36,182 nucleotides of DNA from a virus, in the IMG/VR virus record IMGVR_UViG_3300031841_003365, positions 1 through 36,182 of that record, one strand, 5' to 3'. A model generated the notes under the pieces. The model ran no database searches, was not told where the DNA came from, and worked only from the letters and a program-made list of their open reading frames with translations. Both the position numbers and the translations under genes were made by a program. Positions 6,422-36,182 of the stretch are shown here, in pieces (position 1 is the stretch's first letter; each line of letters starts with the position of its first letter).

Positions 6422-8269
6422 ATGGATAACCAAGAAAAAAGGTTTCTATCTTCGGATTTTGAGGTTCGTAAAAAAGACGGCAAAACTATTGTCGAAGGAT
6501 ACGCAGCTCGATTCGAAGACGAAACGGTGATTGGTGGAAAGTTTGCCGAGCGAGTTGCTCGTGGGGCCTTTGATAAGGCGGACATGACCAACACGGTAGC
6601 TCTCTTCAATCACGACTGGAACCAGCCGCTCGCCCGTGCCGGCAAGGGTCTACACCTGCAGGTCGACGAAGTTGGCCTCAAGTACCGATTCGAACTGGGA
6701 GACCAGTCATACGCCAAGGACTTGGCTGAAAACATTCGAACCGGCAACGTGTCGACTAGTTCGTTTGGATTTACCGTTGGAGACGACTCTTGGGAGCGTC
6801 GAGACAACGGTGTGCACCTCCGAACCATCAACGAAGTAGAGACCTTGTTTGACGTCTCACCCACTACTCAGGGCGCCTACCCCACCACCGAGGTTGGTTT
6901 GCGCTCACTTGAGGCCGCAATGGACCTAGAAGTTGAGGATGAACTCCGAAAGCTCGAAGAAGAGGAGGAGGAAATGAAGATGGAAGAGGACAAGGAGGAA
7001 AAGCCAGAAGAGCGACCCGGCCACTACAAGGACGAAGAGGAGAAGATGGAAGAGGAAGAAGAGAAGTCTGAAGAAGAGGAGGACGACAAGGAAGAAAAAC
7101 TTATGACGGAGGACGCTCCTCGCCCTCCCAAAGAAGATGAAAAAGAGGAGAAAGACGAAGATAAAGAAGATGAGCCCGAGGCTCGTAAAACCAACAATTT
7201 AAATATGAAAGATTCAGGTAATACCGCTCCAGCGGTGATTCAGGGCCTCGGCAACCAAGCAGAGGCTCGTGCTGCCAAGGACTTCAACTTTGGCAAATTT
7301 ATTAAGGAGGCCGCAAAAGGCCAGCTCACAGGCCTCGAGGCAGAAATGTCTCAAGAGGGTGCTAACGAAATGCGCAACGCAGGTATCTCTGTTGCGGGCG
7401 GTGTAAACCTCCCTGAAATGCTCGTTCGTTCATTGGGTACAAGCTCTCCAGCTAACGGCTCGACAGCTTTCGGCGGCGCGATTGGGAAAGATGACCAAGG
7501 GATTGTAGAGAACTACGCTCCAAACGACATCGCTACTCGATTGGGCGTTCGAAATCTCTCTAATCTCAACGGAGACGTTCAGATGCAAGTTCAGAGCACA
7601 TTGACAGCAGCTGCCGCAACGGACGAAGGTGTTGCTCGTACCGAAGCCTTGCCAGCGTTCGCAGCCGTAACTCTGAGCCCAACTCGTTATGCTGCACACG
7701 TAGGTGTGACTCAGCAGATGTTGGCTCAGTCTGGTGATGACATGGAGGCGTTCATCAAGATGGACATTCGCCGCGCATTGGACAAGCAGTTCAACGATGC
7801 CATCATTGACGAGATTGACGACGCGGTATTGGCGGCAAACAGCACCGCTTACACAGCTGGCTCTACATCTCCCCTCGACCTCGAGGAGACTTTGCTCGGT
7901 AACGACGTGTCCTTGGAAGACATCGTAGCACTCTGCGACCCACAGGCGTACCGCAAGGCTCGCACCTTGAGCTTGGACGCTGGTAGCGGATTGGTGTACG
8001 CGGGCTCTCCAAACGACGCTCGCTCTAGCATTCTAGGGTACAACACTGTGATTGCATCTCAGGTTGGTGGCGCAGGAAACGACACGTCTGCAGGTGACTT
8101 GTTCATGTTTGACAAAAACCAGCTCGTGACAGCCGGATGGGGCGGAATGAACCTCATCGTGGACCCATACACTGACGCAGCTAAGGGCGTCGTTCGAATC
8201 ATCGCCAACGAGTACAAGGATGTTAAGTTCTTGCAGAAGGGTGGATTCGCTCGTATGACTGGATTGTAA
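6422..8269 (+). CDS. Prohead protease fused to HK97-type major capsid protein
   Basis: One 615-residue frame carries two head functions. Residues 1-165 form an S78 prohead protease: V-E-G-Y-A-A at 24-29, His64 in F-N-H-D-W, the serine region S-T-S-S-F-G-F (Ser114 most likely catalytic), then L-F-D-V-S-P-T-T and A-Y-P. Residues 168-254 are an almost purely Glu/Asp/Lys linker that may act as scaffold, like the delta domain of HK97. From about 255 to the end is an HK97-fold coat protein. An internal ATG (codon 262, base 7205) lies right at the junction and could make free coat protein. No frameshift or stop separates the parts. Confidence 0.92.
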   Translation: MDNQEKRFLSSDFEVRKKDGKTIVEGYAARFEDETVIGGKFAERVARGAFDKADMTNTVALFNHDWNQPLARAGKGLHLQVDEVGLKYRFELGDQSYAKDLAENIRTGNVSTSSFGFTVGDDSWERRDNGVHLRTINEVETLFDVSPTTQGAYPTTEVGLRSLEAAMDLEVEDELRKLEEEEEEMKMEEDKEEKPEERPGHYKDEEEKMEEEEEKSEEEEDDKEEKLMTEDAPRPPKEDEKEEKDEDKEDEPEARKTNNLNMKDSGNTAPAVIQGLGNQAEARAAKDFNFGKFIKEAAKGQLTGLEAEMSQEGANEMRNAGISVAGGVNLPEMLVRSLGTSSPANGSTAFGGAIGKDDQGIVENYAPNDIATRLGVRNLSNLNGDVQMQVQSTLTAAAATDEGVARTEALPAFAAVTLSPTRYAAHVGVTQQMLAQSGDDMEAFIKMDIRRALDKQFNDAIIDEIDDAVLAANSTAYTAGSTSPLDLEETLLGNDVSLEDIVALCDPQAYRKARTLSLDAGSGLVYAGSPNDARSSILGYNTVIASQVGGAGNDTSAGDLFMFDKNQLVTAGWGGMNLIVDPYTDAAKGVVRIIANEYKDVKFLQKGGFARMTGL

Positions 8270-8285
8270 TTGGCTATATAGAAAA

Positions 8286-8310
8286 GGGGGAGCGATTGTG
8301 CTCCCCTATT
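8286..8310 (+). terminator. Hairpin terminator after the capsid gene
   Basis: GGGGAGC (8287-8293) pairs perfectly with GCTCCCC (8300-8306) around a six-base loop, and is followed by a short T-containing run TATTTTC. The stem is almost the same as that after the tail tube gene. The weak T run suggests partial termination, which would raise capsid mRNA relative to downstream genes. Confidence 0.75.
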
Positions 8311-8318
8311 TTCCCCCA

Positions 8319-8381
8319 AGTGGAGGCGTAGGCGCAGCGCATGGCAGTATCCAGCGGAGGGTTCGAAACCCTACTCCACTT
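8319..8381 (+). ncRNA. tRNA-like element lacking a normal anticodon arm
   Basis: Seven perfect acceptor pairs (8319-8325 with 8374-8380), then a T-arm: GAGGG, loop TTCGAAA (8362-8368), CCCTA, with one mismatch at the base of the stem. Only 31 bases lie between, about ten fewer than in a normal tRNA. They hold one hairpin, CGC-A-TGG / CCA-GCG at 8338-8344 and 8351-8356 with loop CAGTAT, and no seven-base anticodon loop. No CCA follows. It lies between the capsid terminator and the connector gene. A decayed tRNA is possible, but the stem pairing is intact. Confidence 0.6.
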
Positions 8382-11283: not shown

Positions 11284-13682
11284 TGGCTCAAAATACAGTC
11301 ACAACAAAGCTCCTGCTAGACTCGTCGCAGTTTCAGGCAAGCATGGACAAGGCTGCTAATAAGTCCAAGAACTTTGGCCAGTCCATGTTCCGCCTCGGGC
11401 GCGACCTCTCGGGTGCACTCACGCTGCCGTTGGCCCTTGCTGCCAAGAGTGTCATCGACACGGTACAGAGCTTCGACTTAGCCCAAAGGAAAATTGCGGC
11501 TCTCTCTGGACAAACAGAAATATTCGAGTCACTATCCAAGTCGGCGCGTGAACTCGGTGAATCCACCATCTTCACTGCGACCGAAATTTCGGAGCTCCAG
11601 CTGTCTCTCAAGAAGCTAGGTAAAAGCACAACCGAGATTGAGGCTATCCAGACCTCCATACTCAACTTCTCTCAGGCCCTAGATACAGGACTAGCCGAGT
11701 CGGGTGAGTTCGTCGTGCAGACGCTCAACCGTTTCAGTGGGTCGCTGTCTGAGATTGGAGACGCTGGGCAACAGGCTGCATACGTGACAGACTTGTTCGC
11801 TGCCGCTGCGGCAAACAGTGCTGTCGACGCAGAGAAGCTCCGCAACTCGTTGAACTACGTAGGTTCGGAGGCGGCGGCTGCTGGCTTCCGCTTGGACGAG
11901 ACAACCGCCCTCATCGGCCTCTTGGCTGACCGTGGCTTTGATGCCTCGCGTGGCGGTACTGCACTTCGTCGTATTTTGGCGGAGCTCGCGAAGGATGGCT
12001 TGACCGCTCAGGAGTCCCTCGCCGTATTGCTCGACGAGACACAGGGCTACCGTGCAGAGCTCGAGAAGTTCGGTCTGCGCGGCGGTGGTCCCAAGGCCGC
12101 ATTGGCTGGCCTGAACATTGAGTTCGGACTGCTCCTCGAAACTCTTCAAAATTCTGAGGGCTTCCTGCAGAACGTTGCGGACGTCATGGACGACTCGTTG
12201 TTCGCGTCTCTCAAGAAGGTTCAATCTGCCGCGAAGGAGTTTTCACTGTCTATCGGTGACGACGTCATGGGCGGGCTAAAGAATCTCCTCGCACTAATAA
12301 CCGACCTCATCAAGAAGGCGTCAGACCTTCCTGCGCCCATTAAGAAGCTCGTAGTTGGACTTTTAAGCTTCCTCGCAGTACTTGGTCCCATCGCACTCGG
12401 GATAGGCGCTGTAACGCTCGCTGTTAAGACGCTGGGCCTAGCTATCGCAACCACGCCAATCGGTGCAGCACTGACAGCTATCGCAGCCATCGGCCTCGGA
12501 CTTGCTGCCACGGCATACGACGCTGAGGCTGCTGCCGAGCGCGTGAAGGAGGCGACGGACAACATCGCCAAGTACACTGCGCAAGACAGTGACATCGGGG
12601 TGTCAAGTGCAGCACTCGACAAGGCCAACGTGTCTGACGAGGACCGAAAGGAGGCTGAGAAGTACCTCAAACGCCGGGCTGCAACGCTCGTCAAAATCAA
12701 CAACCTCGAGCAAGCGCTGGCATCATACAGGATTGCGGCCGAGCGACAGGGCTTGAAGGAGACGGAACTCACAATCAAGACCGCCGAGGCACTCGAGAAG
12801 CATCGGGAGATACTCGCTGGCCAGAACAGAGAAATAGACCGCCTCATCGGACGCGCCGAGGACTATCAGGAAATCTGGAACCAACAACCCGTGGACTTCC
12901 CGCAGGAGCCGCCATGGGTGAAGGAGCTGCTTGAGAACCGAGACCCAGACACCAGAGATTTGGGTTACGGCGTTGTAGATGCCGACTTCGAGTTCGAACC
13001 CTTCGACGAGCGCTTCGCTCAGGAGCAGGCTCAGAAGTTCTGGCTAGAAATGCTGGAAGACGCGCTCACGCCGTCCGAGCTGGCTGCTATCGGCAACCGC
13101 TGGGAGAACTACCTCAATGAGGCCTCGGATAAGATTGACAGAATCGACCTGAGCTGGACCGACCTTATCGAGGACGAACCCCTCGACGAGGTACTGGGGT
13201 TCACTGACGAAGAGGTCAAGGAAATCCAAGACCGGTTCTACTTCCTCGACAACGTGGTCAAGGAGTGGGGCGCACGCTTCCTTCAGGTTGTTCAAGACAT
13301 AGGGTCGGCTTTCTCAAACTTCATCATGGACGTTGCGACAGGGACAAAGACCCTCGCAGAGTCCTTTAAAGACAACTTAGTAAGCGCAATCGAAGCGGTT
13401 ATCCGCAAGCTCATCGCGCTCATCATAACATTTGGTATTCTCAAGGTACTCGCTGGAGGCACAGGGGTCCTCGCAAGTCTGGCCAACGGAGTTCTCTCCA
13501 GCACGGGCGGCAACTTGGAGGGCTTCGTATTTAACGGTCTCGGGTTTAATGATTTCGCGGGGCCAAACGGCAATGTGGGTATCAACAACCGAAACCTCAA
13601 CTTGGGCGGTGCTGTATCAGGGAACCAATTGGTATTTGCAACACAACGCGGCATTAACGCAAACTACAGAGTTTATGGCTAG
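11283..13682 (+). CDS. Tail tape measure protein
   Basis: A 799-residue tape measure protein of the TP901 core type, which sets tail length and is ejected ahead of DNA. The core region (about 65-260) has STIFTATEISELQLSLKKLG, QALDTGLAESGEFVVQTLNRF and ALIGLLADRGFDASRGGTAL, typical of this family. Hydrophobic stretches lie near 350-420 and near 710-740. The N-terminal V-T-T-K-L-L-L-D-S-S-Q-F-Q-A-S-M is also typical. At this size the tail would be of the order of 120 nm, using the usual rule of about 0.15 nm per residue. Confidence 0.93.
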   Translation: MAQNTVTTKLLLDSSQFQASMDKAANKSKNFGQSMFRLGRDLSGALTLPLALAAKSVIDTVQSFDLAQRKIAALSGQTEIFESLSKSARELGESTIFTATEISELQLSLKKLGKSTTEIEAIQTSILNFSQALDTGLAESGEFVVQTLNRFSGSLSEIGDAGQQAAYVTDLFAAAAANSAVDAEKLRNSLNYVGSEAAAAGFRLDETTALIGLLADRGFDASRGGTALRRILAELAKDGLTAQESLAVLLDETQGYRAELEKFGLRGGGPKAALAGLNIEFGLLLETLQNSEGFLQNVADVMDDSLFASLKKVQSAAKEFSLSIGDDVMGGLKNLLALITDLIKKASDLPAPIKKLVVGLLSFLAVLGPIALGIGAVTLAVKTLGLAIATTPIGAALTAIAAIGLGLAATAYDAEAAAERVKEATDNIAKYTAQDSDIGVSSAALDKANVSDEDRKEAEKYLKRRAATLVKINNLEQALASYRIAAERQGLKETELTIKTAEALEKHREILAGQNREIDRLIGRAEDYQEIWNQQPVDFPQEPPWVKELLENRDPDTRDLGYGVVDADFEFEPFDERFAQEQAQKFWLEMLEDALTPSELAAIGNRWENYLNEASDKIDRIDLSWTDLIEDEPLDEVLGFTDEEVKEIQDRFYFLDNVVKEWGARFLQVVQDIGSAFSNFIMDVATGTKTLAESFKDNLVSAIEAVIRKLIALIITFGILKVLAGGTGVLASLANGVLSSTGGNLEGFVFNGLGFNDFAGPNGNVGINNRNLNLGGAVSGNQLVFATQRGINANYRVYG

Positions 13683-31305: not shown

Positions 31306-31412
31306 CGCTTGAGGGTTTTGATGATTGAAATGAGAGTCTCTACTATAATGGCGGCAGAGCCGAACGCCACGATGGCCACGATGGCCTCGATGAGGGGGAG
31401 GAATTGTTCCAT
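31302..31412 (-). CDS. 36-residue membrane peptide
   Basis: M-E-Q-F-L-P-L-I-E followed by a membrane segment, A-I-V-A-I-V-A-F-G-S-A-A-I-I-V, and a short basic tail ending L-K-R. The TGA overlaps the next gene's start (ATGA), and an A-rich leader (CTTCAAAAAAC) precedes the ATG. A tRNA-like element ends 14 bases upstream of the ATG. The size is below most gene-finder cut-offs. Topology and coupling support it; function unknown. Confidence 0.6.
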   Translation of the reverse strand: MEQFLPLIEAIVAIVAFGSAAIIVETLISIIKTLKR

Positions 31413-31426
31413 GTTTTTTGAAGTTG

Positions 31427-31471
31427 TGGAGGGCAGTGCGGAGTCGAACCGCACCGTAGACCGTCTACCCT
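31427..31471 (-). ncRNA. Minimal tRNA-like element, copy 1
   Basis: On the minus strand the 45 bases run from AGGGTAG to CTGCCCT and then CCA. The acceptor ends pair over seven positions (one T-G). TGCGG-TTCGACT-CCGCA forms a perfect T-arm with a standard loop. Only 11 bases (ACGGTCTACGG) take the place of D-arm, anticodon arm and variable loop; GTAGA/TCTAC could form a competing tiny hairpin. It begins eight bases after the stop of the 324-residue protein gene. It is identical to copies 2 and 3, and flanks diverge outside these 45 bases. Confidence 0.75.
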
Positions 31472-31479
31472 TAGGGCGC

Positions 31480-32454
31480 TCAGTCGAGGAGCGTCAGGTA
31501 TTCTTCGCGGAGGTCTGCGAGGTGCTGCTCCGCGTCAGAAATCAAGCTCAAGAGCTTCTGCCGCTTCTTCTCGATTGAGAAGTTCTTGTTGGCCGCGCTG
31601 CGAAACTCTGCTGCCTCCTTCTTGGTGGCGAAGTTGGCGACCTCGTATGCGAAGTCCCAACGGCTCGCAACTTCTTCGCTAATACCCATGCCGAACTCGT
31701 TGTGCGTTGTGAAGTACACGGTGTAACAGTCGGGCGTCAGGTCTTCTTGCGCGAGGGCTCGCTTCATGTCGTCCTTGTCGCTCTGCGTCCATCGCTCGAG
31801 CTTGATGCTGAAGCTCTCTTCGGCGATTTCTTCAAAGGTGCTGAAGCCTTGCTTCGCAATCTCGATGCAGTGCTTGAGCATCGTAGGGAAGAATTGAACC
31901 GCGTCGCGAACCTCGGTCAAGATACCGATGGTTGCGGTGTCGCGGTAGCTGCGACCGGTTGCAGAGTCGAAGACCCAATCGCCATCGCTATCCTTGAACA
32001 CGGCCACGTGGCTCAATCGTTCTCGAACAGTGTCGCCCAATTCGATGCCGAGGGCGGCCTCGAGGCGGTCGAGGTTGATGTAGCGTTCTTCGCTACCTTG
32101 GAACTTCTTGGCGAGGCAGGTGTACAGCTTCGCGCTACCCCATTCCACGAGGACGTCGCGGGCTTCGTTGATAATAGCCTTGAAAGCCTTGTCTTCTTGG
32201 TCGGTGTAGATATCAACCTTTGCACACAACTCCGTTCGAAGCTGCCCGCGTTCTTCGCCTTCTTCGGTGCAGAATATGGCGAGCATATCGGCGACGGCTG
32301 AGGCTGAAATCCAAGTCTCCGAGCCGCTCCAAGTGATGTATCTCTCACCGAAGGCCACAATCTTGGCAATGTCTTGCGCTGTGAAGGTGTAGTCACCCTT
32401 TGTGGTTGAGATGCTGTAGGTTTTGGTGGTGTTGGTGTTGAAGAAGTCGTTCAT
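31480..32454 (-). CDS. Large hypothetical early protein
   Basis: The longest unrecognised early protein, 324 residues, acidic, mostly helical, with a C-terminal coiled coil (about 290-322, K-K-R-Q-K-L-L-S-L-I-S-D-A-E-Q-H). Residues near 170-190 (D-S-D-G-D-W-V-F-D-S-A-T-G-R) look like a short beta hairpin. There is no membrane segment or known catalytic motif. A tRNA-like element follows its stop. A host-takeover role is possible from its early position only. Confidence 0.8.
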   Translation of the reverse strand: MNDFFNTNTTKTYSISTTKGDYTFTAQDIAKIVAFGERYITWSGSETWISASAVADMLAIFCTEEGEERGQLRTELCAKVDIYTDQEDKAFKAIINEARDVLVEWGSAKLYTCLAKKFQGSEERYINLDRLEAALGIELGDTVRERLSHVAVFKDSDGDWVFDSATGRSYRDTATIGILTEVRDAVQFFPTMLKHCIEIAKQGFSTFEEIAEESFSIKLERWTQSDKDDMKRALAQEDLTPDCYTVYFTTHNEFGMGISEEVASRWDFAYEVANFATKKEAAEFRSAANKNFSIEKKRQKLLSLISDAEQHLADLREEYLTLLD

Positions 32455-32497
32455 TTTTGAAAAGTGTTAAGGTTCTACTATAAGGGGCGCAGGTTGA

Positions 32498-32605
32498 TTA
32501 GGCCTGCAGTTCTTCGGTCGTTGGAATGATAGGGAGGCCGAGGGCGGCGCTGTGGTTGTATACGTCGTCCATAACGTCGCATAGGTTGGTGGTGTAGTCT
32601 TGCAT
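32498..32605 (-). CDS. 35-residue peptide
   Basis: A tiny acidic frame (M-Q-D-Y-T-T-N-L-C-D-V-M-D-D-V...) whose ATG overlaps the TAA of the preceding gene as TAATG, the same coupling used by accepted genes in this genome. It ends 43 bases before the next gene. No function can be read. Confidence 0.5.
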   Translation of the reverse strand: MQDYTTNLCDVMDDVYNHSAALGLPIIPTTEELQA

Positions 32606-33030
32606 TACTTTAGAATTTCTGTGATTCGGTCAAACAATTCTTCTTCGGTCAGGCTCATCATTTGAGCGCCGAACAACTCGGCGTAGATGTTCACCATTCG
32701 GTTAGCCGTGCACAGCGCGGCGTGCTCATCGCTGAGGTCATACTCGAACTCGAAACACCCGAGTTCGTTCTCGATTTCTTCGCGAAGCACAGCGGCGACC
32801 TCGTAGATGTTCCCACGGCCGGCGGTCTCGCTGTAGTAGGTGTCGAAGTAGTAAAAGGCCTCGGCGAAACTGTTGTCTGATTCGAGGTATTCTTGGAGCA
32901 ACTCCATGGCCTCAAAGGGGTCTCCTACCTGCTCCAATTCTTGGTAGGGTATGCTCTCGAGCACGTCGTTCGCGTAGTCGTTGGCAACTTCTTCGAGCTG
33001 CTTATTGAGGAGGGAAATAATCTTGTTCAT
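32605..33030 (-). CDS. Very acidic early protein
   Basis: A 141-residue protein with about 32 Asp/Glu against about 7 Lys/Arg, spread along most of its length, and many aromatic residues (A-F-Y-Y-F-D-T-Y-Y). Such charge is typical of DNA-mimic inhibitors made early by phages (as with ArdA or Ocr), but no known motif of those families is visible, so this is only a suggestion. It lies three bases from the preceding peptidase-like gene. Confidence 0.75.
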   Translation of the reverse strand: MNKIISLLNKQLEEVANDYANDVLESIPYQELEQVGDPFEAMELLQEYLESDNSFAEAFYYFDTYYSETAGRGNIYEVAAVLREEIENELGCFEFEYDLSDEHAALCTANRMVNIYAELFGAQMMSLTEEELFDRITEILK

Positions 33031-33033
33031 GGA

Positions 33034-33558
33034 TTAGAATTTTACGGTGTAGGTGATTACTTGATTTTGGTACGTTGCGTTCTCTCTGTTGTTGTTGTAA
33101 AGCACGCCGTTGATTAGCGCGAGGGCGTGGTCACGGGTGATGATTAGGAAGCGACCGCGCGGGTTATTCTTAATGAAGGTGGACACCTTAATATTCTTGG
33201 CGAACTTGTCTGCCTGTGCTTCGCTGAGGTTCTCCGCGAGGGTGGGGCGACCTTCTTGGCCGGCCTTCTTCACATAGTAGTCGTAGCTGAAGGGCTTCAG
33301 GTATCGAGTGATTTCGCATTTAGGCCGTAGCTTCTTGTATGCCCTGAATCCTTCGCCCTGATAGTAGCATGTGCCGGCTACGTGCTCGAGACCGTCCTGC
33401 TTGACTACCTTGTAGGCCAATCGATTCTTGACCGTCCACGCGGTGGCCTGCTCGTAGCTCATGCCGATGATGTTCGAGAGAGCAATCACGCCACACGAGC
33501 CGTGTAAATTCTTGGCCGGCTCACCGGTTTTCTTGATTATGCAAATGTTCCTGTTCAT
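33034..33558 (-). CDS. Possible papain/C39-like cysteine peptidase fold protein
   Basis: A 174-residue protein with the layout of small C39/papain-like enzymes. Cys22 sits at the start of a helix in GSCGVIALSNIIGMSYEQA. Much later, His144 lies on a strand, T-R-D-H-A-L-A-L-I-N-G-V-L-Y-N, where Asn155-157 could take the Asp/Asn role. Intervening parts are basic. There is no signal peptide. The pattern is suggestive but the family is not certain. It is flanked downstream by an acidic protein and upstream by tRNA-like copy 2. An early host- or defence-directed role is speculative. Confidence 0.6.
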   Translation of the reverse strand: MNRNICIIKKTGEPAKNLHGSCGVIALSNIIGMSYEQATAWTVKNRLAYKVVKQDGLEHVAGTCYYQGEGFRAYKKLRPKCEITRYLKPFSYDYYVKKAGQEGRPTLAENLSEAQADKFAKNIKVSTFIKNNPRGRFLIITRDHALALINGVLYNNNRENATYQNQVITYTVKF

Positions 33559-33580
33559 GGGGTGGGTGTTTTGTTATTCT

Positions 33581-33625
33581 TGGAGGGCAGTGCGGAGTCG
33601 AACCGCACCGTAGACCGTCTACCCT
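33581..33625 (-). ncRNA. Minimal tRNA-like element, copy 2
   Basis: Identical over all 45 bases to the copies at 31427 and 34043. On the minus strand it begins seven bases after the stop codon of the 127-residue protein and its CCA lies 22 bases ahead of the peptidase-like gene's start. The 5' flank (CCCCCT) and 3' flank (AGAATA) differ from those of the other copies, so the shared block ends exactly with the acceptor stem and CCA. Confidence 0.75.
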
Positions 33626-33632
33626 AGGGGGC

Positions 33633-34016
33633 TCACTTAAGCCGGATTTCTTCTTTCGTGTCGAGGTTGAAGAAAGCAATTTCATCGAAGGTCTCTGCTA
33701 CGATTCTTGCACTCTCTTCGCTGTTCATCACTGCAACCGCATCGAGGTACAAGGTACCGCCGTCGAGCCAAAAGCCAACTTTCATTTTTGGGTGTGAGAG
33801 CCGAATCTTCTTGATTGCCTCGGTGATTTCTTCGAGCTGCTCGAGTCGAGCGTTGTAGAACTTGAACTCACGAATGCCGCCCACGGCGTACCCGGTTGTA
33901 ACGGTGTCCCCGGTCTTGGGGTCTATAGTGGCTCCGCCATTCTTGGCGGTCAGGCTGAGGCCTTTAAGGGCGATTTCTTTTGAGGTCACGTAGTTGGTTG
34001 CTTTTGCGTTTTTCAT
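33633..34016 (-). CDS. Hypothetical protein
   Basis: A 127-residue protein, probably alpha/beta, with a basic first third, a helix L-E-Q-L-E-E-I-T-E-A-I-K-K-I and strands V-G-F-W-L-D-G-G-T-L-Y-L-D-A-V-A-V. No family recognised. It is bounded on both sides by tRNA-like elements, so its message could be cut out as a single unit if these are processed. Confidence 0.75.
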   Translation of the reverse strand: MKNAKATNYVTSKEIALKGLSLTAKNGGATIDPKTGDTVTTGYAVGGIREFKFYNARLEQLEEITEAIKKIRLSHPKMKVGFWLDGGTLYLDAVAVMNSEESARIVAETFDEIAFFNLDTKEEIRLK

Positions 34017-34042
34017 GGCGCTAAAATTTGAGTTTTAAATTA

Positions 34043-34087
34043 TGGAGGGCAGTGCGGAGTCGAACCGCACCGTAGACCGTCTACCCT
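34043..34087 (-). ncRNA. Minimal tRNA-like element, copy 3
   Basis: Third identical 45-base copy. It begins six bases after the stop of the 85-residue gene, and its CCA end lies 26 bases before the start of the 127-residue gene. The first two bases beyond the 5' side (TA) are shared with copy 1 only; after that the flanks differ. Confidence 0.75.
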
Positions 34088-34093
34088 TAGCCG

Positions 34094-34351
34094 TTAGGCG
34101 TGTTGCTCAATTGCCCGGCGGCATGCGAATATGGCGTTTGCTTCATCGTCGAGCTTCATCATGTAGTCGAAGGTGGCGCGAATGGAGTCACCCAAGTCGA
34201 CCGCCTCGAGTGAAAACTCGTCCGCCTCGAGCAAGTTGCGGTGTTTGATTCTGAGCCGCTCCCATTCATTACGGGCGGCGCGGTAGTTGCGTTCAACGTC
34301 GCCTTGTCGCGACTTCAATTCTGCAACGATTTCTAGTTTGTATGCGTTCAT
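34094..34351 (-). CDS. Hypothetical helical protein
   Basis: An 85-residue helical, charged protein (R-Q-G-D-V-E-R-N-Y-R-A-A-R-N-E-W-E-R-L-R) with the look of a coiled coil followed by a helical tail. No family is recognised. The start overlaps the stop of the 51-residue gene by ATGA. A tRNA-like element follows. Confidence 0.72.
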   Translation of the reverse strand: MNAYKLEIVAELKSRQGDVERNYRAARNEWERLRIKHRNLLEADEFSLEAVDLGDSIRATFDYMMKLDDEANAIFACRRAIEQHA

Positions 34352-34589: not shown

Positions 34590-34613
34590 GTGTGAAAGTG
34601 TTTAGAGTGTTTG

Positions 34614-34892
34614 ACGGTGCCCCGGTCGCGAGCCGGGTGAGATACGCAAGCTATCTAGCACCGTGATAAGTCCGGCGGGCGTCCCTCCGTACTGTTTCCG
34701 TCATTGCTCCGCATAAGTGGCTCGCTACGTACGCTAATTGAATAGCCTTCGCGCTGCATTTTGCTACGGTGACGGGTTCAGGAGTTAGTCCCTACGCATT
34801 GAGCAAACGCAACCGGCAGCGAATCCAACGTACAACGATTGAACGCCCCTCGTTGGGTGCCGGTATTGTTATTTCAATACTGTTTTGTTTTA
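34614..34892 (+). ncRNA. Candidate structured RNA with GNRA-capped three-way junction
   Basis: A seven-pair stem, ACGGTGC (34614-34620) with GCACCGT (34658-34664), encloses two hairpins: CCCGG/CCGGG with a C-GCGA-G cap and AGATA/TATCT with a C-GCAA-G cap. Both caps are GNRA only when read on the plus strand. Further on, CCGTCA (34698-34703) can pair with TGACGG (34770-34775). ACCGGCA (34812-34818) and CCAACG (34825-34830) pair with TGCCGGT (34858-34864) and CGTTGG (34851-34856). A weak hairpin, GTATTG/CAATAC, then runs into TGTTTTGTTTT. Read on the minus strand, it would instead be a leader of the early operon. No known family is recognised. Confidence 0.55.
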
Positions 34893-35166: not shown

Positions 35167-35247
35167 TAACTCGCTGATAATGTGATAGTTACGGCTACGA
35201 AAAAAAATTTCATGCGCCTTCGTAACTCGCTGAGCCTCAGGCAGTTA
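35167..35247. repeat. 25-bp dyad repeats A and B with A-tracts
   Basis: Copy A (35167-35191) and copy B (35223-35247), 56 bases apart, both begin TAACTCGCTGA and end AGTTA followed by CGG. In copy B the inner arms are perfectly self-complementary (CTGAG and CTCAG around C), whereas in copy A the inner right arm carries two mismatches. Outer arms pair perfectly in both. An A8 tract follows each. Confidence 0.75.
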
Positions 35248-35894
35248 CGGACGAAAAAAAATTGAAGATTTTCCGAAAAAAAATCACCGAGGGGGCAAAA
35301 TCGGCCCCGTGGAACATAGAAATTCACCTATTCGCGGCAAAACGCCGGAAAGCCGCGCCACCAAAGGGATGCAGCGCATTTGGGCGAACACCCTAAAAAA
35401 AATTTGCCCGTGAAACATCAGTAAATACAGGGGTTTCAGAGAAATCGCAAAAAAAACCTTGCATTTGTGGGTCGGTTTTACTACATCGACCGCCAAAAAC
35501 GCTAAATCACACATTTACAGCACTTTAGCAAAATCAGGTTTTCAGGTCGTGTACCTAAAAACTAGCACTTTGCAGCAATAGCAAGGGTTTCAGAGGCCGG
35601 TGTGTCAAATGGACACGATATGAAATAGGGGCTATTTGGCGCCCTATCAAAGACCGTGCCAAAACACGTTTCTGAGGGTGTTTTGGTGGCTAGGTGGTGC
35701 GGAATGGGGGTGCAATTGGGGTCAAATGCGCGTCCGGAAATTGTGTTTCAATTAGTATTAATACATGTACCCAATAGCAACAAAAAGATTGTGTTGGCAT
35801 AGCTCACAAATACAAATACCAACAAGGCAACAAAAGGGGGTGCATGGGGTGTGGTATGCGGCACACGGTACCGGGTCAGGTACGGTACTTTGTA

Positions 35895-35920
35895 ATGCAT
35901 AGTACCTAATTACTATGCAT
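35895..35920. repeat. 10-bp perfect inverted repeat
   Basis: ATGCATAGTA (35895-35904) and TACTATGCAT (35911-35920) form perfect arms around CCTAAT. A further GCATAG follows at once. No T run is attached, so it is more likely a protein site or cruciform than a terminator. Confidence 0.7.
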
Positions 35921-35933
35921 GCATAGCATTGTG

Positions 35934-36086
35934 TAACTGCCTGATAATCAGCAAGTTATAACTGCTTGATAATCAACTAGTTAGCGCTCCTGCAGCGCCC
36001 ATATTAAGGGGGTTAGTGTACGGTTTACACACTACTACAAAACGGTTCAATTGATAGGGGCTAACTGACTGATAATCAATAAGTTA
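35934..36086. repeat. 25-bp dyad repeats C, D and E
   Basis: Copies C (35934-35958) and D (35959-35983) are directly abutted; E lies at 36062-36086. All fit TAACT, two free bases, YTGATAATCAR, two free bases, AGTTA. In D the inner pair changes from C-G to T-A on both sides, preserving symmetry; in E one inner pair is broken. All three keep the GATAAT centre. Confidence 0.8.
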
Positions 36087-36113: not shown

Positions 36114-36182
36114 GCGGCGAGCTGGGACCGACGGCCGGGGGGTCTTTCTTTTATGCGGCGAGCTGGGACCGACGGCCGGGGG
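36114..36182. repeat. 41-base tandem repeat at the contig junction
   Basis: Unit one is 36114-36154 (GCGGCGAGCTGGGACC, then GACGGCC, six Gs, then TCTTTCTTTTAT). Unit two begins at 36155 and runs to the last base with five Gs; base 1 supplies the sixth G, and bases 2-13 supply TCTTTCTTTTAT. The join is therefore exact, and the window is a closed molecule or one concatemer unit. A third, partly matching GCGGC start follows at base 14. Confidence 0.9.

Follow-up and report, generated by a model that had tools for sequence, protein, structure and literature searches.

tRNase Z and the CCA-adding enzyme act on minihelices that consist of the acceptor stem and T-arm of transfer RNA (tRNA), and the tRNA-like domain of transfer-messenger RNA (tmRNA) is composed of an acceptor stem, a T-arm and a D-loop without a D-stem. 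Bacterial RNase P cleaves constructs of acceptor stem and T-stem-loop, such as AT1 and pMini, at the canonical site, reading the T-loop and its distance to the 5' end with sensitivity at G19 and A58 (PMC11143913). Mitochondria cut polycistronic messages at tRNAs, and some organelles do so at tRNA-like sequences (PMC9181182). Here we describe a natural element of this shape, 41 nucleotides (nt) long and called mini-tRNA below, three identical blocks of which lie between early genes of the IMG/VR virus contig IMGVR_UViG_3300031841_003365; the whole contig of 36,182 bases was analyzed and is referred to as the window. In view of the cleavage of such constructs by RNase P, the minihelix substrates of the other two enzymes and the punctuation of organellar messages, we read the element as a punctuation signal, and the three blocks probably belong to a so far undescribed class of RNAs between phage genes that marks the sites where RNase P and tRNase Z divide polycistronic messages. 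The cutting, the resulting RNA ends, the effects on expression and the contact in the elbow are what we infer.

The mini-tRNA resembles the tRNA-like domain of tmRNA in combining an acceptor stem, a T-arm and a D-loop without a D-stem, but it lacks the long connector helix, tag frame and pseudoknots of tmRNA, and ARAGORN, run for tRNA and tmRNA genes, reported none in the window and in its relatives. Like organellar punctuation (PMC9181182), it places between reading frames a tRNA or tRNA-like fold, which RNase P and tRNase Z cut in organelles and would cut in phages, whereas organelles use full-size tRNAs or tRNA-like sequences and the phage element has 41 nt, neither a D-stem nor an anticodon arm, and a home in double-stranded DNA phages of bacteria and archaea. 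AT1 and pMini likewise have an acceptor stem stacked on a T-stem with its T-loop (PMC11143913), but they are laboratory constructs, whereas the phage element is natural and multi-copy, bears GG in a D-loop-like linker and often has a stack of 11 instead of 12 base pairs (bp). The C4 antisense RNA of phages P1 and P7, as cited in PMC11143913, is also a phage RNA recognized by RNase P via tRNA-like features; in that citation it figures as a single antisense regulator of one locus, with another architecture and not as a repeated intergenic element. The intergenic repeats of halovirus HF2 are similarly placed in gene gaps, and VOLN27B, a Halorubrum virus discussed below, is in the same genus, but the passages on these repeats in PMC8707807 assign promoters to them and describe no tRNA fold, and the tRNA-like attP gene of HF2 is a separate feature. 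No earlier description of the mini-tRNA was found in the open-licence literature, to which the search was confined, and no GenBank annotation was present at mini-tRNA sites in the phage records examined. What appears to be new is a natural mini-tRNA of 41 nt that recurs between genes of tailed bacterial and archaeal viruses; the principle of tRNA punctuation is known from organelles.

The 45-mer AGGGTAGACGGTCTACGGTGCGGTTCGACTCCGCACTGCCCTCCA occurs exactly three times in the window, always on the minus strand: copy 1 (31427-31471) follows a 324-amino-acid open reading frame (ORF) and precedes an ORF that starts at 31412, copy 2 (33581-33625) lies between the ORFs 33633-34016 and 33034-33558, and copy 3 (34043-34087) lies between the ORFs 34094-34351 and 33633-34016. 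The first paired A lies 8, 7 and 6 nt past the upstream stop codon in copies 1, 2 and 3, and the next start codon of these minus-strand ORFs follows 17-29 nt downstream. An earlier sequence-only reading of this DNA had pointed out the three identical blocks and their placement 6-8 nt past stop codons, both of which are borne out, and had set the bounds of identity at the 5' base of the acceptor and at CCA; the shared sequence does end at or beside the 45-mer, but two of the three copies share a few more bases 5' of the acceptor, the only ones in common beyond it. No further copy was found in the window at up to 3 mismatches, the exact 45-mer was found nowhere in IMG/VR outside this record, and the number of occurrences expected for its 24-nt 3' half was 0 (100 shuffles).

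Comparison with a related contig (L013) and with actinophage copies gives the best pairing as an acceptor stem of 5-6 bp and a T-stem of 6 bp with an A-U pair closing the helix, instead of 7 and 5 bp, while the fold into acceptor stem and T-arm is well supported by a compensatory orthologue in L013 and by distant phages. The linker of 11 nt has GG at positions 4-5 and replaces both the D-arm and the anticodon arm, so that the copies are not canonical cloverleaf tRNAs, and CCA is encoded in the mini-tRNAs of the window phage. A search against Rfam gave no gathering-level match in the window and, in 10 element-bearing loci, no match of relevance up to E=1. The folding energy of the 45-mer was unremarkable (z = -0.9) and is uninformative alone; hence, the evidence for the element lies in its repetition, its homologues and their covariation.

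Alignment indicated that 24 copies match without gaps over 41 nt in a single plan of a 5-bp acceptor, an 11-nt body (N3-GG-N6), a 6-bp T-stem, a 7-nt T-loop and a discriminator base. Compensatory changes were present in 10 of the 11 pairs, and the covariation score was 0.864, compared with 0.191 for shuffles and at most 0.14 when the partners were slid. The GG at body positions 4-5 and TTC.A in the T-loop were invariant. In tRNA, G18 and G19 of the D-loop contact T-loop positions 55 and 56, and, with this contact known, the invariant GG points to a kept elbow. This suggests that the linker is a stripped, stemless D-loop docking on the T-loop, which would leave a tRNA elbow that lacks both D-stem and anticodon arm. 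With GG invariant in all 24 homologues, the original view of a linker merely standing in for missing arms is not supported.

A covariance model (R2) built from actinophage and halovirus copies, with no sequence from the window clade, found exactly the three mini-tRNA copies in the window record, each over its full length (positions 1-41) at E=3e-5, with the match to copy 1 at 31430-31470. It also found the L013 copy at E=0.0018 with filters off, a copy missed with default filters. R2 gave no match in phiC31, which has a genuine tRNA-Thr, indicating that the model is not simply a tRNA detector. As the window copies combine the full-length R2 match with the linker GG, the TTCRA T-loop and an intergenic site past a stop codon on the gene strand, they can be assigned to a shared RNA class with good support, copies 2 and 3 by exact repetition and R2 and copy 1 by the L013 orthologue in addition.

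The first lead to distant phages was a weak blastn match (E about 1) to Mycobacterium phage Konstantine, in which mini-tRNAs occupy the gaps gp45/46, 46/47, 48/49, 50/51, 52/53, 53/54 and 57/58 in the layout of stop codon, 6-52 nt, mini-tRNA, perfect stem-loop and next gene. The Konstantine copies, used as queries, matched 875 places in 258 phage records, mainly of Streptomyces and Mycobacterium phages; weaker matches extended to Gordonia phages and haloarchaeal viruses, some of the weakest being ordinary tRNA genes. Among plasmids, similarity was weak throughout and confined to one from Gordonia. In Joe, Send513, VOLN27B and Rabbitrun, the annotated gaps showed the same layout, with a mini-tRNA that is never annotated. 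A descriptor that bounds the stem and body lengths, uses a TTCRANN T-loop and requires pairing, but not GG, counted 8 mini-tRNAs in Streptomyces phage Joe, 12 in mycobacteriophage Send513, 7 in mycobacteriophage Konstantine, 2 in Halorubrum virus VOLN27B and 3 in the window, compared with 0 in each control on the reversed sequence of the same loci and 0 in phiC31, one Flavobacterium phage and one cyanophage. Mycobacteriophage Phreeze has 7 copies of the 41-nt architecture. Relaxing the T-loop of the descriptor brought no gain over the control (24 versus 20), and the TTCRANN form alone was therefore used. The recurrence of this plan between many genes of distant phages leaves the assumption that the element is peculiar to the window phage without support. 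In VOLN27B, a TAAAGACT motif lies upstream of the mini-tRNA. A single mini-tRNA was also seen in Mycobacterium phage George, a Fromanvirus, toward the right end of its genome (50808-50849; locus L113, 4809-4850, minus strand), directly upstream of a TTGACA-like box.

Position statistics were obtained for 32 descriptor matches in annotated stretches. All 32 lay on the gene strand and 31 were intergenic, with a median distance of 9 nt from the upstream stop codon and the start codon mostly 30-50 nt beyond the element. A stem-loop started within 12 nt behind the element in 21 of 29 cases, compared with 35% at random positions, and in actinophages and haloviruses it usually followed the mini-tRNA by a few nt. 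The strand, the intergenic site, the distance from the stop codon and the trailing stem-loop look like those of a cis-acting signal, unlike a tRNA array or a decoy cluster.

The strongest rival explanation is that these GC-rich hairpins after stop codons, two in succession in actinophages, are U-less transcription terminators or attenuators, in which the T-arm hairpin, with the trailing stem-loop in actinophages, stops or slows the polymerase between early genes and the likeness to tRNA is secondary; U-less terminators have been described for actinophage phiC31, as cited in PMC8355165. A terminator, however, needs neither an invariant TTCRA T-loop nor a linker GG nor a covarying distal 5-bp acceptor; the elements have no U tract, a scan of the window for terminators (hairpin and U tract) did not place the three copies among its terminator-like sites, and the early gaps of phiC31 hold other inverted repeats and no mini-tRNA, the finding on which a link to the phiC31 structures was dropped. 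We therefore consider termination rather unlikely. It is improbable, too, that an excised minihelix acts in trans as a tRNA mimic, that is, as a decoy or effector tying up or redirecting the CCA-adding enzyme, TruB, tRNase Z or tRNA-targeting defence nucleases. The full T-loop with a likely elbow, the CCA encoded in the window phage and the several copies per genome would suit this role, but the elements stand one per junction at a fixed distance from the stop codon on the gene strand rather than in a clustered RNA array, the occupied junctions differ between relatives, as described below, and an element without an anticodon arm offers no target for anticodon nucleases.

To follow the element among close relatives, we used a capsid-protein search, which gave eight related contigs, two of which (L012 and L013) extend to the early genes. 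L013 has a diverged copy, AGGGTAGACGGTCCCCGCTGCAGTTCGACTCTGCAGTACCCTCCA, at the same junction as copy 1 (12568-12608, minus strand), 8 nt past the orthologous stop codon. Relative to the window copy, two T-stem pairs (G-C to A-U, G-C to C-G) and one acceptor pair (U-G to U-A) have changed without loss of pairing. A second, larger tRNA-like element lies directly behind this L013 copy. In L012, a tandem of both kinds, mini and larger, is located at another junction, which is empty in the window and L013, indicating that elements are gained and lost junction by junction. A further comparison, of 72 contigs from a portal-protein alignment, covered the gap that separates the capsid gene from the head-tail adaptor gene. 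Many of them have a tRNA-like element in this gap, mostly behind a capsid stem-loop; other members have a stem-loop with a T tract and no tRNA-like element. The elements fall into six types without sequence relation, which all have in common only an acceptor stem and a T-arm; hence, shape and not sequence is kept. In one pair of contigs (L027 and L028), the element differs although the flanks are near-identical. A descriptor scan of the portal-set contigs gave 21 matches versus 6 in reversed sequence, the true ones clustering at capsid gaps.

Such swapping of whole elements between near-identical flanks, together with the three identical window copies and the varying presence among relatives, could also be expected of functionless tRNA relics, small and mobile or gene-converted, that spread by recombination and are tolerated in gaps. 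Relics should lose their pairing and lie in random orientation, whereas compensatory changes, a geometry conserved across bacterial and archaeal viruses and a strict strand bias were observed, and pairing preserved more strongly than neutrality would predict is already largely seen, which makes this explanation very improbable. The decoy and selfish-relic alternatives, both raised in the sequence-only reading, are thus weakened by the placement of one element per junction and by the unrelated sequences of one shape in a single slot. An integration site (attP) was ruled out by the several copies per genome at gene junctions.

If the element is a punctuation mark, the mini-tRNA would fold just past each stop codon of the early polycistronic message, with its GG touching positions 55/56 of the T-loop in the manner of G18/G19 in tRNA and forming an elbow on the stack of acceptor and T-stem. 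Host RNase P would then cut the 5' end of the mini-tRNA, tRNase Z or a 3' exonuclease route would process its 3' end, and the upstream and downstream messenger RNAs (mRNAs) would be freed with defined ends. The trailing stem-loop in actinophages and haloviruses could serve as a protective 5' hairpin of the downstream mRNA, and the stem-loop before the tRNA-like element in the capsid gap could protect the 3' end of the capsid message. The idea of punctuation put forward in the sequence-only reading is well supported by the compensatory orthologue, the junctions of distant phages and the strict bias in strand and position, as is its argument from known minimal substrates by the new evidence, and phages with mini-tRNAs probably cut their messages apart via the host tRNA-maturation machinery. 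The site between stop codon and next start, and the general ability of T-loop/D-loop modules to bind several ribonucleoproteins, would also fit a functional RNA structure that is not cleaved, for instance a translation-initiation, mRNA-stability or ribosome-recycling element recognized via its elbow. The acceptor stem and discriminator-like base, which are kept, would be unneeded for such roles, and we give this explanation hardly any likelihood.

Several points weigh against punctuation. The stack from the T-loop to the 5' end comprises 11 bp in most actinophage copies and 11 bp plus the A-U closing pair in the window copies, which reach 12 bp only via that pair, compared with 12 bp in tRNA, and the cut by RNase P may be shifted or weaker as a result. 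In some bacteria, tRNase Z can be blocked when CCA is encoded, and the CCA of the window phage is, like the 11-bp stack, a point of imperfect fit to standard substrates. The element is dispensable, being absent from the gaps discussed here in many members of the same wider phage family, and the 100% pairing in the actinophage set arises partly by selection because the descriptors require pairing. The wider proposal is that the natural 41-nt minimal tRNA is an independent, widespread class and that tailed viruses of bacteria and archaea use RNase P and tRNase Z for general mRNA splitting, with a downstream stem-loop protecting each new 5' end and sequence-unrelated mimics exchanged as cassettes in fixed slots; to this we assign even chances. 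If cleavage is confirmed, host tRNA enzymes divide the early messages at miniature tRNAs that these messages carry, and a basic step of gene expression has been overlooked in many phages, including long-sequenced laboratory mycobacteriophages and Streptomyces phages. The elements would then provide minimal RNase P and tRNase Z substrates of natural origin, for archaea as well as bacteria, a compact message-splitting part for biotechnology and an RNA family ready for immediate addition to annotation pipelines.

The capsid-gap element of the window, larger than a mini-tRNA, is located at 8319-8380 on the plus strand between the capsid and head-tail adaptor genes. It has a 7-bp acceptor (AGTGGAG/CTCCACT), a T-arm with the loop TTCGAAA and two small extra hairpins (fold z -2.2), and it directly follows a terminator-like stem-loop with a weak T tract downstream of the capsid gene (8285-8312, plus strand). 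Its orthologues in L006, L007, L010 and L025 show one compensatory acceptor change, A-U to G-C. This window type also occurs in L004, L008 and L011; the other five types are those of L009/L026/L028/L030, of L027/L029/L032, of L036, with an atypical T-loop, of L037, and of L064, whose body of 10-11 nt is like that of the window copies. In L098, a more remote contig, a near-cloverleaf that encodes CCA is present, and element sizes accordingly span from nearly a tRNA to the minimal form. A pattern match in L019 was dismissed as it looks like a chance match.

A tentative candidate for a tRNA-like three-way junction lies in the leader of the early operon of the window, upstream of the first early genes (34613-34664, minus strand; fold z -2.0). 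Its 7-bp closing stem (ACGGTGC/GCACCGT) carries two hairpin arms, one of 5 bp with a loop of 7 nt and another rich in GC; the T-loop is not canonical, and the structure may be another tRNA-like element. A counterpart could be present in the leader before the early genes of L098 (approximately 555-620), where hairpins in tandem show the loop TTCGATT and an acceptor that is imperfect. The Konstantine leader before gp45 contains, at the end of the gap 6654-8208 of locus L107, a larger tRNA-like element with a body hairpin and a TATCGATT loop, behind which lies a stem-loop of the same kind as behind the mini-tRNAs; a similar shifted T-loop is found in L036. Between gp13 and gp14 of phiC31 (31410-31550; locus L112, 7411-7551) lies a sequence resembling a full-size tRNA, GGCTCCGGTAGCTCAGCGGAAGAGC...GGTTCGAATCCGGCCCGGAGCA, which is unannotated and odd in its anticodon region.

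The plus strand of the window encodes the structural genes (terminase, portal and capsid), and the minus strand the early block, including ribonucleotide reductase, an exonuclease and a primase. The nearest relatives of the exonuclease are those of cyanophage S-CBS2 and Flavobacterium phages. A host search among genome contigs gave no match, a search for relatives of the 324-amino-acid protein upstream of copy 1 found none, and the primase alignment, used as an IMG/VR query, gave no contigs beyond those already in the set. In a gene-poor region of approximately 1.5 kb, an interrupted palindrome of 25 nt, of the type TAACTGCCTGATAATCAGCAAGTTA, occurs five times (35167-36086), possibly as an origin or a regulator-binding array. 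At the very end of the record, the GC-rich 28-nt sequence GCGGCGAGCTGGGACCGACGGCCGGGGG occurs twice, at 36114-36141 and 36155-36182.

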